From: a virus
DNA: 33,672 nt
Direction: 5' to 3' (one strand)
IMG/VR virus record: IMGVR_UViG_3300043772_002064
Coordinates: 1 to 33,672 of that record
Shown one piece after another: positions 1,519-8,321 of this stretch (its first letter is position 1; each line of letters starts with the position of its first letter). The translations under genes were made by a program, and so were the position numbers. Under the pieces are notes generated by a model. The model had not been told where the DNA came from, made no database searches, and saw nothing but the letters and a program-made list of their open reading frames with translations.

Positions 1519-1898
1519 TCCAACTTAATACCATCGGACGAAATTATATACCAATTGTTTTCAATTAAAACCATCTCAACACAAGCACCTTTACTTATAT
1601 TAAGTTCATCATAGTACTCATCTATCTTTCCGATAGATGGGGTTATGGTAACATTTGTTAATACTTTAATAATAATATGGTCTGATTTAGAATTGTCTAA
1701 AACCAAATTACAATGTTCTGTATTTTTGATTAAAATTAAATCTTCACCATTTGTAGTATACGAAGATTCGGTTACAACTTTTTTTAAAAACTCAGGCACT
1801 AACGGAATAAGTTTCTCAAAATATTCAATCTCTTTATGTTGTTTAATATTATAGGTTTTATCACCAATTTTTTTTCTAACCAAAGTCGATTTTATCAT
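1515..1898 (-). CDS. Small fibre/collar-like structural protein
   Basis: 127-residue protein of unconfirmed function. The C-terminal 75 residues are a run of short beta strands with regularly spaced hydrophobics (HIIIKVL, VTITPSIGKIDE, GACVEMVL) ending in NNWYIISSDGIKLD. This style is common in trimeric beta-prism domains of phage fibres and head-decoration proteins. Its ATG overlaps the 3' end of the gp13-like neck gene by 4 bases, so the two are almost certainly co-translated. In T4 the collar whisker gene wac lies beside gene 13, and the position here is compatible with a neck or collar fibre. That role is inferred from context and strand pattern only. Confidence 0.4.
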   Translation of the reverse strand: MIKSTLVRKKIGDKTYNIKQHKEIEYFEKLIPLVPEFLKKVVTESSYTTNGEDLILIKNTEHCNLVLDNSKSDHIIIKVLTNVTITPSIGKIDEYYDELNISKGACVEMVLIENNWYIISSDGIKLD

Positions 1899-3022
1899 AT
1901 CACATAAATTTGTCTTGGCATTGCGGTAAATTTCTTTTGTTTGTTTAAGTTTTCCGCAAGTAACGCTTCACGTTCCATTACTTTTTCAGGCCTTAATCTT
2001 GTTAATCTACCTTCCGCACCGGTTAATTCCTCAATTAGTTTAGATTTTTCATCTTTTGCCTCAGTTGACAATGATTGATAATCCATTGTTAATTCAGAAT
2101 CAGGAGTTTTTAAATTACCACTATATTTTCCTCTTACCTTTGATAAGGTTTCTTTACAATAAGCAATAAACCATCTTCTTACCCACTGTTGAGCGGGATT
2201 ATTTAAATCCGTCCATCCAATTTTATCAAATGGAACATCTGATGGTAATCTAATAATGTCAGGATTGTCTTTTAAACATTTATCTCTATCGGCACCTTCC
2301 GCTTCATAATACCAATACCAAACTTTACCTTTAGTTAAAGTACCGTTACCAAAATCAAATTTACCACCCGGGGTATTCATTAAATGAATCGCTTTTTTAC
2401 CATCAGGTAATGCAGTAACTCTATATGTTAAATCACCGGCAATAATTCTTCTTTGTATGTTAATTTCTTGCATTCTTAGTAACATATCAAAAGCAGGCAT
2501 CATAAAATATCCTCCGGCAGTGTTACCCATTTGAGCAAGTCCTCCACCACCTCCAAGTCCTCCGCCAGCACCTAGCGCTCCAAAAGACCAAGGGTCAAAC
2601 ATAACATTATTTAATGTTGCGGGACTAAACCACAATAACTCGTTTAACTCTCTATTTGCAGGAATTTCATAAATTTGCTGTCCCTTAACTAATTGTATGT
2701 AGTCTTTTTTAAGAACAGAGTCTCCTCCTGCCTGTAACCCAACAATTTTTGAATAAGCGTAGGTATATCTTTGTTCGTAATCTAAACTTTTTGTTGTAAA
2801 TGCTTTAGATAAAGATTGAGTATCTAAATTTAAATTATAAAGTGATGTCCATTGAGATTCAATTAACCAATCTTGAACATATTGTGAATAATCGTCTATT
2901 GAGAATTCCAATAGAGTGTCCATTTGTTCATCCTCTAATTCAATAGACCTTAAAGGTGCTCCCAATAAGTGTCTAACTTTACGATATAAATCGCTTCTTT
3001 CTGGTTCTGCAATGATTGACAT
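1895..3022 (-). CDS. Neck protein, T4 gp13-like
   Basis: 375-residue putative head-completion/neck protein that would join the DNA-filled head to the tail. Helical N-terminal part (residues 10-60), a middle segment with KGQQIYEIPANRELNELLWFSP (about 113-134), then a C-terminal helical part with QQWVRRWFIAYCKETLSKVR followed by a charged helix. This layout (helical start, a beta region ending in an ILWF-type strand, W-rich C-terminal helices) matches gp13 of T4-like marine phages, as I recall the family. An unusual Gly-rich loop (residues about 148-171) sits in the middle and looks like a flexible insertion. A TATTTATA motif ends 16 bases before the ATG. The gene heads a two-gene minus-strand unit. 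Confidence 0.6.
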   Translation of the reverse strand: MSIIAEPERSDLYRKVRHLLGAPLRSIELEDEQMDTLLEFSIDDYSQYVQDWLIESQWTSLYNLNLDTQSLSKAFTTKSLDYEQRYTYAYSKIVGLQAGGDSVLKKDYIQLVKGQQIYEIPANRELNELLWFSPATLNNVMFDPWSFGALGAGGGLGGGGGLAQMGNTAGGYFMMPAFDMLLRMQEINIQRRIIAGDLTYRVTALPDGKKAIHLMNTPGGKFDFGNGTLTKGKVWYWYYEAEGADRDKCLKDNPDIIRLPSDVPFDKIGWTDLNNPAQQWVRRWFIAYCKETLSKVRGKYSGNLKTPDSELTMDYQSLSTEAKDEKSKLIEELTGAEGRLTRLRPEKVMEREALLAENLNKQKKFTAMPRQIYVI

Positions 3023-3038
3023 AATTGTGTTCTTTATA

Positions 3039-3048
3039 TATAAATATC
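3039..3048 (-). promoter_or_regulatory. Late-type motif GATATTTATA upstream of the neck gene
   Basis: Read on the minus strand this is GATATTTATA, ending 16 bases before the ATG at 3022. It overlaps the stop codon of the upstream SOD-nuclease gene by two bases. The same motif at exactly the same spacing precedes the next minus-strand gene (4567). Confidence 0.5.
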
Positions 3049-4567
3049 AATCTATCTTAAAAACTAAATCACTCTTATTTAAGACAAAATTTCCCTCAAT
3101 AATTTCGGTATTTGAATTATCAAACACATATATTTTTTTTCTATTTGTGAATATTAACCAATCTGTATCATATTCCTTAACGCCACCAGTTTCGATAAAA
3201 ATAACTTTATCCCCATCAACTTTAATATCTTTAAAAGGTTTAACCTGAACAGTCTTTTTACTTCCATTATAAATAATTTCACAATCAACTCCTTGTAATG
3301 TATCACTAAGATTACCAATACTAGCAATCTTTTTAACATTATCATTACCAAGTCTTTCTTTTAATTTTTTAACAACATAGTCTTCGTTAGTATCGCCAAA
3401 CCCACCTGTCTTTTTAACCGTATCCATCAAAGCTTTAAATGTAGATGATTCGGGATTAAAGATTCTATTTTTAAAGTAAGTTATTGCGTTTAACAATCTT
3501 GTAAGTTGTTCCTCATTGTTTTCAACATTAAATGTTATTGGTCTTTTCTTCATTGTGAAAAGAACTTTATTTATGTCGTTAACTAAGATACAAAAACAGG
3601 TATAATTTGTATTAACTCTATTAAATATTGAACGACCGGGTTCTCCCATAAAATCGTATAAACCTCTTAATGTTCCCGGAGCATATTCATTTCTTTTATA
3701 ATAGTTGTCAGGAAATACCTCTGATAAAGTTTTCTCAATCCACTCATTAAAATCTTTCTTAATATTTGGGTACTTGTTAAATAACTCTCTATAAAAAGAG
3801 TTTTCTCTTGTACTACATTTTTCGTCTACCGATTCTGACAAAATAATTCTTCTAAAATAATTTTCGTTTAATGTTGTTTTGGTCTTCATCTCATACATTT
3901 TGTTAACGAATTCCCAATTAACAAAATCCCAAAAACCCTTAATATAATCGTCTCTTTTATTTTTATATTTTAAATAATAAGCATGTTCCCATAAATCTAA
4001 ACCTAGTAAAGGGTAACCACCTCTTTTAATAACATTCATTAGTGGGTTATCTTGATTCGGGGTTGACATAATTTTTAATCTTCCCTTTTTGGTTAAAACA
4101 AGCCACACCCATCCTGAACCAAATCTTTTTTGTGCAACATCTTCAAACCTTGATTTAAAGTTTTTAAATGATTCAAAATGTTTGTTTATTTTTTCTAATA
4201 ATTTTTCTGAGGGGTTTTGTTTTTTTGGGGATAACATCTTCCAAAATAAGGCGTGGTTAAAGGCGCCACCCGCGTTATTTCTAATAACTTTTGGAAATCT
4301 ACTTATTGATTTTACAATTTGTTCAAGTTCCAAATCACCATAATCTTTTTTGGATAAAACGTCATTCAATTTTTTAACATAACCTTTATAATGTTTGTTA
4401 TAATGAACATCCATTGTTTCGGAATCAATGAATTGTTTTAAAGAGGAATAAGAATAGGGTAATTTTTCAATACCGATTTTTTTCATTTCGGTTAATAAAA
4501 AATCCTTACTTTCAGACTTTTGTATTTGTTCTAATAAAACAGATGTTTTTTCTAATATACTTCTCAC
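3047..4567 (-). CDS. Fe/Mn superoxide dismutase fused to a PD-(D/E)XK nuclease-like domain
   Basis: 506-residue two-domain protein. Residues about 35-222 are an Fe/Mn superoxide dismutase. All four metal ligands are visible: H55 (in DVHYNKHY), H105 (in FNHALFW), D191 and H195 (in DLWEHAYY). Second-shell Y63 is also kept. G101 and Q172 (in STPNQDNP) sit where MnSODs, rather than FeSODs, place Gly and Gln, so Mn use is favoured. Residues about 390-485 look like a PD-(D/E)XK nuclease core: E395, D428 in GVD, and Q441-V-K443. The 225-390 linker is unrecognised. The start is GTG; no in-frame ATG lies upstream, and starting at M28 would remove the leader MRSILEKTSVLLEQ. That leader ends in an (L/I)xE site like T4 capsid-targeting peptides. 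A TATTTATG motif lies 16 bases upstream. The SOD call is secure; nuclease activity is inferred. Confidence 0.88.
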   Translation of the reverse strand: MRSILEKTSVLLEQIQKSESKDFLLTEMKKIGIEKLPYSYSSLKQFIDSETMDVHYNKHYKGYVKKLNDVLSKKDYGDLELEQIVKSISRFPKVIRNNAGGAFNHALFWKMLSPKKQNPSEKLLEKINKHFESFKNFKSRFEDVAQKRFGSGWVWLVLTKKGRLKIMSTPNQDNPLMNVIKRGGYPLLGLDLWEHAYYLKYKNKRDDYIKGFWDFVNWEFVNKMYEMKTKTTLNENYFRRIILSESVDEKCSTRENSFYRELFNKYPNIKKDFNEWIEKTLSEVFPDNYYKRNEYAPGTLRGLYDFMGEPGRSIFNRVNTNYTCFCILVNDINKVLFTMKKRPITFNVENNEEQLTRLLNAITYFKNRIFNPESSTFKALMDTVKKTGGFGDTNEDYVVKKLKERLGNDNVKKIASIGNLSDTLQGVDCEIIYNGSKKTVQVKPFKDIKVDGDKVIFIETGGVKEYDTDWLIFTNRKKIYVFDNSNTEIIEGNFVLNKSDLVFKID

Positions 4568-4583
4568 AAAATGATTATTTTAA

Positions 4584-4593
4584 CATAAATATC
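4584..4593 (-). promoter_or_regulatory. Late-type motif GATATTTATG upstream of the SOD-nuclease gene
   Basis: Minus-strand GATATTTATG ends 16 bases before the GTG start at 4567, the same spacing as for the neck gene. It supports the GTG as the true start. Confidence 0.5.
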
Positions 4594-4627
4594 CTGTATT
4601 TACCATATTTTCAGAGTCTAAAATAAA

Positions 4628-4659
4628 TTTGGTAGATTAGAAAACATTTCATATCTTTG
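4628..4659 (+). promoter_or_regulatory. Bacteroidetes-type promoter of the metalloprotease gene
   Basis: TTTG (4628-4631), 20-base spacer, TATCTTTG (4652-4659). This matches the Bacteroidetes -33 TTTG / -7 TAnnTTTG consensus exactly. Only four bases separate the -7 element from the ATG at 4664, so transcription would begin at or very near the start codon, giving a leaderless or nearly leaderless mRNA. Confidence 0.65.
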
Positions 4660-4663
4660 TATT

Positions 4664-5173
4664 ATGAAAACATTATTATTATTTATAACCATTTTATTCG
4701 GTATATCAGTATATTCTCAATCGTATAAAGACACATCTTTAAATGTGAGAATATTAAGAATGGATAATTATGATTCGTTAAAATTACAAAAACATTCTAA
4801 ATTTATTAAAGAAAAATTCGGTTATAAAGTAATTTTACCCGATAACACAATTAAAAGTGAAGATTACTTAACGATAAGTAATTCTTTTATTGATGTTATT
4901 AAATTACTTCAAAATATGTATTGTTATGAAATAACTATTGTTTTTACAAATAATCCTTTATATGAAAGTCCCATATCTTTAAAAGGGGCAACAGATTACG
5001 AAAGAAAGGTAATCATTATTGATGGTAATTTAGATGACATTAATTTAGTTATAATTCATGAGATTGGTCACGTCTTAGGAATACATCATTGTGAAAATAC
5101 TGATTGTATAATGTTTGATAATGCGGTTAAAGAAGAATTTTGTAATAAATGTTTATCTATTTTTAATAGATAA
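4664..5173 (+). CDS. Secreted archaemetzincin-like zinc metalloprotease
   Basis: 169-residue predicted exported protease. Residues 1-18 form a signal peptide (MKT, then LLLFITILFGISV, with likely cleavage after VYS before QS), typical of Bacteroidetes. The catalytic motif HEIGHVLGIHHC (residues 132-143) gives zinc ligands H132, H136 and H142 with base E133. It is followed by CIM (C148, M150) and CNKC (C160, C163). This is the archaemetzincin layout HExxHxxGxxHCx4CxM...CxxC, with a second cysteine zinc site, but the final spacer is shorter (9 rather than the usual about 17). Archaemetzincins are normally cytosolic, so a signal peptide is unusual. The gene has its own host-like promoter and is divergent from the SOD gene, as expected for an acquired accessory gene. 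Substrate unknown; periplasmic or outer-surface action is inferred. Confidence 0.8.
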   Translation: MKTLLLFITILFGISVYSQSYKDTSLNVRILRMDNYDSLKLQKHSKFIKEKFGYKVILPDNTIKSEDYLTISNSFIDVIKLLQNMYCYEITIVFTNNPLYESPISLKGATDYERKVIIIDGNLDDINLVIIHEIGHVLGIHHCENTDCIMFDNAVKEEFCNKCLSIFNR

Positions 5174-5183
5174 AATATTTATT
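5174..5183 (+). promoter_or_regulatory. Late-type motif AATATTTATT before the 458-aa gene
   Basis: AATATTTATT directly follows the metalloprotease stop codon and ends five bases before the ATG at 5189. If it is a -10 element, the transcript would start at about the start codon. Confidence 0.35.
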
Positions 5184-5188
5184 AACAT

Positions 5189-6565
5189 ATGGAAGAAAAA
5201 AAATTTATTAGTGAATTACATAGAATGAAATACCTATTTTCTCATGAGAGAGGTGTGGTTATTTCTGAACAAACAAAAATACCCCAACAATTACCAGATT
5301 CATCGAAAAAACCCTCTAATAAAACTGTTACTAGTCAAGAGACAACTAGTACTAAAAAAGAAGGTAGTGAGACCGTTATATCTAAAACAAGAACTGAAAA
5401 AATAAAATTATCAGAAAGGTTTACCGCAACTTATGATGAAAATAGTGATGACCCAAACCTGTTTTTAAATAGTGCGTATCAAAAAATAATTGATAGGTTA
5501 AATCAAGAAAATCCTGAAAAGTTATCAATATTAATTACAAAGGCAAATATAATCGGAACCGCAAGTAATCAATGGGGTGGTCCAACAAAATATGATTCTG
5601 ATAATAATTACAAATATTTAGGCGGAGAACAGCCTCAAACACCCACTGAAGTTACTTTAGATGGTAGAACAATTAAATTTAACAAAAATTATGGTCTAAA
5701 TAAAACTTTAGCAAATAAAAGAGCGAATAATTTTTGGACTAAACTACTAGTTAAATTACAAACCCCACCTGTTAATCCTCCCGAAAAACCAATAATTAAG
5801 ATGGGTGCTGACGTTACCCCAACTATAAGTCAAATGGTTGTCAATACAGGGGGTCAAAACGATGATGTTAGAGTTCAACAAAAATACCCAAATCCGGGAC
5901 AAACAGTTTTAATTGATTTAGAATTTGTTTATGAAAAAACGAAGACGGAAATCGAAAGGCTTCCTGTAAATATTGAAGAGACTTCAATTAGAACCTCAAC
6001 TCATTGGTGTGATGGAACTGATGGAACCGGGTTTGTCGGAAATTTGGACGCAAAAAAATATTGTTTAGGTAAAAGGGATAAGTCAGCGGATAAAATGAAT
6101 GGTGCTTTTAATACATCTAAACCCAATAATAAATCCACTGAAACTTCACCAAGAATCAAGAGAGTTCCTGTGGGAGTATCAAACCCAGCAAGTGTTAAAG
6201 GTATTAATATATCTGACGTTGATTGGACTAAATCTCAAGTAACTACTATTATGGAATACCCTAATATGGTATCAACTGAACACGATTACATATTTCGTTA
6301 TGAAATGGATTACGGTATTTGGGAGTTTTTTTGGCAAGATTTTAAAATCACTACAATATCAAGAACTCCAAAAAAAGGTCTTGATTGGATTGCCAGTAAG
6401 GTAAAAGATGTTAAAGGTGTTTCACCTGGTGCAATAAAGAATATCTTATCTGATACAAATAGCAAATTTTATATACAAGAATTATTAGTTTGTATGAATT
6501 TAAAGAAGAGTGGTGGAGACGCTTATAGAAAATCTTTTGATTATTATGTTAAACCTTATATTTAG
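5189..6565 (+). CDS. Leader-bearing protein of unknown function with weak OmpA-like stretch
   Basis: 458 residues, not confidently assigned. The first 27 residues (FISELHRMKYLF, then VVISE before Q28) resemble the start of the protein at 31313 and end in an (I/L)xE site, so they may be a cleavable capsid- or virion-targeting leader. Residues 28-75 are Ser/Thr/Lys-rich and look disordered. Residues about 112-190 contain IIGTASN and NKTLANKRAN, which recall the GxA...N..LA..RA pattern of OmpA-like domains, but the match is weak. The C-terminal part is rich in aromatic residues (YGIWEFFWQDF) and has a WCDG and a Cys pair. The last 17 bases overlap the convergent SNF2 helicase gene. A virion protein is the best guess. 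Confidence 0.5.
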   Translation: MEEKKFISELHRMKYLFSHERGVVISEQTKIPQQLPDSSKKPSNKTVTSQETTSTKKEGSETVISKTRTEKIKLSERFTATYDENSDDPNLFLNSAYQKIIDRLNQENPEKLSILITKANIIGTASNQWGGPTKYDSDNNYKYLGGEQPQTPTEVTLDGRTIKFNKNYGLNKTLANKRANNFWTKLLVKLQTPPVNPPEKPIIKMGADVTPTISQMVVNTGGQNDDVRVQQKYPNPGQTVLIDLEFVYEKTKTEIERLPVNIEETSIRTSTHWCDGTDGTGFVGNLDAKKYCLGKRDKSADKMNGAFNTSKPNNKSTETSPRIKRVPVGVSNPASVKGINISDVDWTKSQVTTIMEYPNMVSTEHDYIFRYEMDYGIWEFFWQDFKITTISRTPKKGLDWIASKVKDVKGVSPGAIKNILSDTNSKFYIQELLVCMNLKKSGGDAYRKSFDYYVKPYI

Positions 6566-8321
6566 TAGAATTAATTTTATTCATAATCTGTTCGACAATA
6601 TCTCCCTTATCTAAATTATCCCCCATTACGGTTTCAATAATAGACTTCTTTGAGTTTACAATATCATATATTGAACCCTCAATAGTATTTTCAAATATTG
6701 GGTAATAAACAAGAACATTATTTTTTTGACCATATCTATACGCCCTATCCTCCGCTTGAGATAAGTCTCCCGGCACAAATGATAAATCGTTTATGATTAC
6801 AGATTCAGCTGCGGTTAAAGTTAAACCAACTCCCGCCGCTTTAACATTACCAACAAATACTTTTATTTTATCGTTTTCTTGGAATTGGTCAACCGCATAT
6901 TGTCTTTGTGGTTTAGAAGAACTTCCATCTAATCTTACCGCCTGTTTACCAAAATGGTCGGCAATTCTATTTAATGTGTCTGTAAAGTTTGTGAATATGA
7001 TAACTTTCTTTTCTTGGTCGATTATGTTTTGAGTGAGTTCAATTGTGTGTTGTATTTTTTCTTCAGCAATTACTTGTCTTACTTTCATAAGTTTTGTAAA
7101 TTGAATTGTTAAAGATTTTGATTCCTCACTCTTAGTTCTATACCAATCAAAATACTCACCCATTAGTCCTTCATAAAGTTTTGATTTTAATCTTAAATAA
7201 ACAGGGGTAATAATCTTTTCAGGTAAATCCAATACTTCCGTTTTCAATCTTCTTAAAACTTGTTTTGAAGTTCTATCTCTTAATTCTTCTAAGTTAGATG
7301 CTCCTGACACATTCCAAATCTTTCTGTTACCGGCCTTAAACTGATATCCTTGACAATATCTAATAGCATATGCCATCCAATTCTGTGCGACAGGGCTCTC
7401 AATTAATTGAAGTAAATTAAAATAATTCATTGGTCTATTTGTCATTGGAGTTCCTGTTAATAACCAAAGTCTATTCGCCTTCTTAGAAAAATGATTTACA
7501 AGTTTTGTTCTTTGAGCCTGACCATTTTGAATGTAATGGGCTTCATCTATGATAATCAAATCAGGATTTAACTTACCAATCATCGAGTTTTCTTTATCCT
7601 TTAAATCATAGAAATTTTTTAAGATGTCATAATTCACAATAATAAAGTCGTGGTCTAATGAAAAGTTTTTACTTTCACAAATAAAAATACTTCTATCGGT
7701 GTAATTTCTAATTTCTCTTTCCCAATTTATTTTTAAAGATGCTGGACAAATAATTAAAATCTTTTTTGCCCCACTCTCAATCGCTGCGATTGTTGCTGAG
7801 GTAGTTTTACCAACACCCATATCGTCAGCTAATATAAATCTTTTAGAACCAACCAATTTTTCTATCGCCTCTTTTTGATGATTTAACGGTGGTCTATGAG
7901 AATATTTAAAGTAGTCAATTTCGACCACTTTAGTTGTGTGAGTTTTTAGTAAAGCCCCTTTAGGTAACCAAAAATCATGTATAGTTTCTCCTGAAAATAC
8001 TTTACCCCAAATGTGATAAGATTTTTCTTTTTCTGTCAATAACTTCTCCACCCAAACCTCAGTCGGTATTTCAGTATATAATTTCTCATCCGCAATTTTC
8101 TTTGCGAAGTAGGGGTCTAAATCAACCCACTTCTTAGCAACCTTTGGAGTTTTGTTGTGGTTATTAATTATATATTCTGATTGAGAACGAGTTGGATAAA
8201 ACTTTTTGTTAGTTAGTTTTTGTTGTTTTAATTTTAAGATATAGTTATTCGCGCCTTCATACGAATCCAATATGGATAAGGCATTATGTTCGATAAGATT
8301 ATTTGTCAGACCTGAAGTCAC
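6549..8321 (-). CDS. SNF2-family DNA helicase/translocase
   Basis: 590-residue superfamily 2 ATPase of the SNF2/SMARCAL1-like type. Helicase motifs in order: Walker A DDMGVGKT (166-173), DEAH (259-262), LTGTP (288-292), AAGVGLTLTAA (495-505) and QAEDRAYRYGQ (522-532) with the arginine finger. The first 140 residues are an unassigned N-terminal domain. It probably remodels or reverses forks and recombination intermediates, the job UvsW does in T4, but the sequence is SNF2-like rather than plainly UvsW. The start is GTG at 8321; the frame stays open upstream but has no ATG. A perfect host-like promoter lies about 25 bases upstream, which suggests earlier expression than the surrounding virion genes. 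Its 3' end overlaps the convergent 458-aa gene by 17 bases. Confidence 0.9.
   Translation of the reverse strand: MTSGLTNNLIEHNALSILDSYEGANNYILKLKQQKLTNKKFYPTRSQSEYIINNHNKTPKVAKKWVDLDPYFAKKIADEKLYTEIPTEVWVEKLLTEKEKSYHIWGKVFSGETIHDFWLPKGALLKTHTTKVVEIDYFKYSHRPPLNHQKEAIEKLVGSKRFILADDMGVGKTTSATIAAIESGAKKILIICPASLKINWEREIRNYTDRSIFICESKNFSLDHDFIIVNYDILKNFYDLKDKENSMIGKLNPDLIIIDEAHYIQNGQAQRTKLVNHFSKKANRLWLLTGTPMTNRPMNYFNLLQLIESPVAQNWMAYAIRYCQGYQFKAGNRKIWNVSGASNLEELRDRTSKQVLRRLKTEVLDLPEKIITPVYLRLKSKLYEGLMGEYFDWYRTKSEESKSLTIQFTKLMKVRQVIAEEKIQHTIELTQNIIDQEKKVIIFTNFTDTLNRIADHFGKQAVRLDGSSSKPQRQYAVDQFQENDKIKVFVGNVKAAGVGLTLTAAESVIINDLSFVPGDLSQAEDRAYRYGQKNNVLVYYPIFENTIEGSIYDIVNSKKSIIETVMGDNLDKGDIVEQIMNKINSTKYKV

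Follow-up and report, generated by a model that had tools for sequence, protein, structure and literature searches.

The locus considered here raises the question of whether a phage gene that joins a superoxide dismutase (SOD) to a second, putatively nucleolytic domain encodes one bifunctional enzyme or a precursor from which two are cut. The window, by which we mean the whole stretch of DNA analyzed (33,672 nucleotides, a 33.7-kb fragment), carries this gene on its minus strand (3047..4567) as a 506-aa ORF with a GTG start, and full-length relatives occur in at least 596 tblastn-confirmed IMG/VR stretches. The source phages are large uncultured T4-like phages forming one family, and we read their nearest records as pointing to a freshwater origin, which may not fit every contig. 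A Bacteroidota host is a guess, since the capsid protein is closest to those of isolates as different as a Microcystis phage (43%), Flavobacterium phages (41%), and Rhodothermus phage RM378 (37%), among others. The downstream neighbor is a gp14-like neck protein or head-tail adaptor (1895..3022, minus strand; phrog_211, 1.1e-10), while an SNF2-type helicase (6549..8321, minus strand; Pfam SNF2, 1.2e-29) lies upstream, and this order is kept in relatives. Neck, sheath, and tube genes all adjoin the gene, just as an initial sequence-only reading had placed it beside neck and tail genes. Within the window, ~2 kb (4593-6567) lack a counterpart in the 203-kb relative L003; this interval encodes a leader-type protein (5189-6565) and, at 4664-5173, a metalloprotease whose N-terminus contains a signal-like stretch.

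Residues 28-228 (3884..4486, minus strand) form an Fe/Mn SOD domain. Pfam matched both of its parts (Sod_Fe_C at 1.7e-40 and Sod_Fe_N at 2.4e-21), with scores of 137.6 and 76.4 bits against curated cut-offs of 20.9 and 27, while a sequence search of the PDB matched solved SODs at 4e-60 and the structural model aligned with SOD structures at Z scores of up to 21.5 (4yio, 193 residues aligned, rmsd 2.9). Profile, similarity to solved enzymes, and fold all identify residues 34-226 as an SOD. A scan of IMG/VR gave at least 599 pattern matches, of which at least 596 proved to be relatives in tblastn and 80 were retained; conservation was assessed in 45 representatives that are <90% identical and share as little as 45% identity with the window. 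None of fifteen key residues varies in this set, and ten of them belong to the SOD (H55, H59, Y63, G101, H105, Q172, D191, E194, H195, and Y198). These include everything that had initially been listed as intact, namely the four metal ligands (H55, H105, D191, and H195), Y63, and the MnSOD-type G101/Q172 pair, and every SOD-bearing representative keeps all of the ligands. Purifying selection is also stronger on the SOD part than elsewhere in the gene, its dN/dS being 0.11 compared with 0.31-0.35 (nuclease) and about 0.4 (leader and linker), values that are approximate because the dS of the pairs used runs from about 0.9 up to 1.2. Thus, the SOD active site appears intact and dismutase activity is predicted. 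In fold, ligands, and the Mn-type G101/Q172 pair, the domain resembles other Fe/Mn SODs, including the stand-alone phage enzymes of PA5oct-like phages and Vibrio phage 2.275.O; however, the phage SOD genes that we inspected all encode stand-alone proteins of about 180-200 aa, whereas this one adds a leader and a nuclease partner.

The remainder of the protein, residues 246-506 (3050..3832, minus strand), comprises a helical part (247-380) and a core of about 385-506. No sequence family in Pfam, PHROG, or the PDB matched the window's copy of this unit, and an ABC-3C identity was rejected, the match being that of a single member (3.6e-4) and isolated. Modeled alone, the unit reached a pLDDT of 87.7 and aligned with the Holliday junction resolvase Hjc (2wcw, Z 8.7, rmsd 3.5 over 103 residues), NhoI (Z 8.2), and I-Ssp6803I (Z 7.7), and nearly all of the structural matches listed are nucleases of the PD-(D/E)XK fold. 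Foldseek was weaker, giving no match to the PDB with E below 1e-3 (best E 0.01), so the assignment rests upon the second structural alignment together with the residue pattern. The latter consists of the catalytic-type E395 on nuclease helix 1 (3383..3385), a further acidic residue, D422 (3302..3304), the catalytic-type D428 of the GVD motif (3284..3286), and the QxK motif Q441-V-K443 (3239..3247), all encoded on the minus strand. E395, D422, D428, Q441, and K443 are invariant in 45/45 representatives and are kept in a stand-alone homologue of 25% identity that a 735-kb phage encodes. By its model, the region of residues 385-485, in which the sequence-only reading had recognized an E...GVD...QVK arrangement of this kind, does adopt the PD-(D/E)XK fold, and Mg2+-dependent DNA cleavage would be its expected activity. 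The core fold and the E/D/QxK residues are shared with Hjc, RecU, I-Ssp6803I, NhoI, and DpnI, but the unit differs from these nucleases in belonging to no known sequence family, forming instead a family of its own, in its extra conserved helical part, and in its fusion to an SOD. A search of 84,980 bacterial and archaeal genomes with one pattern found no relatives of the domain, and viral contigs queried directly with the stand-alone homologue gave no match, while a query with the alignment did find relatives. The unit also finds a match within a much longer protein, A0A8D9CCA0 (1113 aa), from an uncultured marine phage.

The fusion is therefore not confined to a single contig, being present in the at least 596 relatives noted above. 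It had been put forward as undescribed, and we likewise found no description of an SOD-nuclease fusion, or of a packaged phage SOD, in the open-access literature. A public database does already hold an unremarked example: A0A6J5L953, a 501-aa protein from an uncultured Caudovirales phage annotated solely as a superoxide dismutase, has a C-terminal part, unnamed in that record, that matches the nuclease unit (TM 0.90, 30% identity) and is very probably the same fusion.

The borders between these domains carry a recurrent motif. The leader, residues 1-27 (4487..4567, minus strand), ends in (L/I)xE at E27 (LLTE|M), and the linker between the SOD and the nuclease, residues 229-245 (3833..3883, minus strand), contains two further putative prohead-protease sites (LNE235|N and LSE245|S). 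The motif occupies the exact column in 41/45 representatives at E27, 41/45 at E235, and 42/45 at E245, compared with a chance background of about 1.9% per position; allowing for [LIVM]xE nearby, site 235 is kept in all 45 and site 245 is missing in two. When 32 representatives were searched for columns with ≥80% [LIVMF]xE, only E27, E235, E245, and E194 emerged, of which the first three are domain borders (leader/SOD and SOD/nuclease) and E194 is part of the SOD active site. Sites persist in the linker even though it evolves faster than any other region, and the two segments of the model with pLDDT <50 (residues 19-38 and the linker, 231-248) coincide with the borders. A cut at E27 would leave the SOD beginning 8 residues before its LPY motif, which is close to where SODs usually start. 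Prohead protease gp21 of T4 cleaves after L/I-X-E (PMC9026906), and short leaders serve as capsid-targeting sequences (PMC5694885). Among the six large relatives searched for gp21 and gp23, a gp21-type Peptidase_S77 (PF03420) is present in four, and the same four encode a gp23 capsid protein, whose N-terminus reads LINE|A in 4/4.

Natural variants of the locus indicate which parts of the protein travel together. In some relatives, the position between the helicase and the gp14-like gene is occupied by proteins of 277-309 aa that keep the leader, the nuclease, and (L/I)xE while lacking the SOD. One SOD-less type reads 'SINE|MKKIEIEKL' and then directly 'KSIISEG', which comparison with its nearest relatives identifies, at the sequence level, as an in-frame loss of the SOD body. 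The 309-aa proteins (L146-L151 and L153-L155) had at first seemed to bear an SOD, since the full-length profile aligned with their leader, but inspection showed them to be SOD-less. A tree of the nuclease domain requires at least four label changes, corresponding to a distant stand-alone pair, the L117 group, L147, and L134. The last of these (5030-6594) was rejected as an SOD loss, since it encodes SOD and nuclease in two frames that overlap at the linker, a split that is possibly natural or a sequencing error. With L134 and the distant pair among the four changes, at least two independent losses (or gains) are counted within the clade. In the opposite direction, one relative encodes an 882-aa version composed of leader, SOD, nuclease, and nuclease, with (L/I/M)xE at each border; by inspection, both of its nucleases contain the E, D, and QxK residues, and the sequence recurs in five contigs. 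Thus, as far as these sequences go, the nuclease is the constant partner and the SOD an optional module.

Expression and gene order were consistent with a virion role. The late-type motif ATATTTAT lies about 20 nt upstream of the start codon (4585..4592, minus strand), in agreement with the claim that the gene sits under such an element, and a TATTTAT-type element precedes the gene in every listed relative. In the 322-kb relative, [AT]TATTTAT precedes 67/296 genes versus about 5 expected, and these include the scaffold, sheath, tube, and terminase genes (placed by position or similarity), from which we infer that it is a late promoter. Although the SOD-nuclease gene stands by the neck and helicase genes, outside the head cluster, both the 322-kb relative and the 203-kb relative carry, between the gp21 protease and scaffold genes, a nuclease paralogue that has a leader of its own; the 203-kb relative also encodes an SOD-nuclease 97% identical to that of the window.

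From these results, we favor a reading, to which we assign a probability of roughly 60%, in which the protein is a late-expressed precursor that is packaged into the capsid as cargo, split by the prohead protease into an SOD and a nuclease, and delivered with the DNA. Two separate cargo enzymes are suggested by the protease-type sites between the domains and by the loss of the SOD body alone in close relatives, while the head-protease-type sites at each border make packing into the head, cutting, and injection probable. The leader would take the precursor into the prohead, where a gp21-type protease would cut it after the (L/I)xE motifs ending in E27 and in E235, E245, or both. The mature products would be an Fe/Mn SOD (about residues 28-235) and a PD-(D/E)XK nuclease (about 246-506), which would enter the host together with the DNA, the SOD clearing superoxide early in infection and the Mg2+-dependent nuclease attacking host or competitor DNA. 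Virion delivery, as originally proposed, is thereby strengthened by the gp21-type protease, the border sites, and the head-cluster paralogue, and the head-targeting nature of the leader is plausible, whereas the single bifunctional enzyme of that proposal is probably wrong. More generally, it seems an evenly balanced proposition that the locus encodes a modular cargo polyprotein, in which injected enzymes lie behind one leader, each flanked by prohead-protease sites, with modules gained or lost and released separately in the head. Several points weigh against the cargo reading. Unless a nuclease carried in the head were kept inactive there, or the DNA shielded from it, the phage would put its own genome at risk. 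In addition, (L/I)xE is a short motif, the P1' residue at E27 is usually Met, the leader lacks sequence similarity to the other leader types in these genomes, and the gene is outside the head cluster.

Comparable systems are known. The internal proteins and Alt of T4 are leader-borne, processed by gp21, and ejected, and the precursor similarly combines an L/I-X-E leader, a late context, a presumed ejection, and a gp21 homologue in relatives; however, the T4 internal proteins are single small proteins, whereas the precursor has a pair of catalytic domains, or three of them in one relative, separated by putative sites. Chlorovirus PBCV-1 combines the two functions in its virion, packaging an active Cu/Zn SOD (A245R, the product of a late gene) and two restriction endonucleases; cells infected with PBCV-1 contain less superoxide than those infected with a virus that has no SOD gene, and the packaged enzymes are credited with the breakdown of host DNA within 5 min (PMC7019647). 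The products of the precursor may, by analogy, lower superoxide and attack DNA early in infection, although the PBCV-1 enzymes are separate proteins, its SOD is of the Cu/Zn type, and its host is eukaryotic. We know of no prohead-protease processing of the PBCV-1 SOD or restriction enzymes.

It is also conceivable, if unlikely, that the protein remains uncut and works in the infected cell as a bifunctional auxiliary metabolic or DNA-metabolism enzyme, its (L/I)xE motifs being incidental. Short motifs do arise by chance, jumbo phages have stand-alone SODs outside virion gene clusters, and phage SODs are commonly taken as metabolic genes (PMC12542629). This would leave the confinement of conserved (L/I)xE to the domain borders and the SOD active site as a coincidence, which the 882-aa version, following the same border rule, would repeat; the repeated loss of the SOD between the two sites and a late-type promoter motif common to virion genes likewise argue against this alternative. 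Somewhat more doubtful is the possibility that the nuclease processes DNA late in infection, for instance by resolving or debranching it for packaging, with the SOD merely protecting DNA or protein during that step. The resolvases Hjc and RecU are among its nearest structures, its paralogue is in the head cluster, and a Pfam search of six large relatives detected no RuvC. Yet the fold does not single out a resolvase, since matches to restriction enzymes, a homing endonuclease, and a defence nuclease score within about 1.5 Z units, and the Pfam result falls short of establishing that a resolvase is absent because visual inspection of an ORF in the 322-kb relative (272055-272654; VLGLDVSTKTIGWAL) suggests a RuvC-like protein. 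This alternative would also leave the leader and border sites unexplained. A non-enzymatic structural or targeting role for the SOD fold in the virion, raised earlier as a scaffold and recalling the SOD-fold subunits of the plastid RNA polymerase complex (among the structural matches listed), is very improbable given that the ligands and second-sphere residues are all invariant (45/45) and the dN/dS is the lowest in the gene, while the SOD is dispensable at a locus where the rest stays.

If the cargo reading is correct, this would be the first known phage SOD to be packaged and the first multi-enzyme injected precursor split by a head protease, as to our knowledge there is no earlier phage case of either. 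It would also suggest that oxidative defence and DNA attack upon entry are paired as virion functions in phages, as they are in chloroviruses, and a leader plus L/I-X-E borders would provide a sequence rule for finding injected enzymes in uncultured phages. As a separate observation, the 322-kb relative (G001; L087-L103) encodes dozens of proteins with recurrent leaders, such as MKKxIRLTESDLxxIVKRxINEQ and MKYLITESKL, that end in an (L/I)xE-type motif (examples at 31641-34179, 36500-41223, and 126638-127321). In this genome, [LI]xE[AGSQ] occurs at 7.3 per 1000 in residues 1-25 versus 2.1 past residue 100, and the leader-bearing proteins are possibly a large packaged set.
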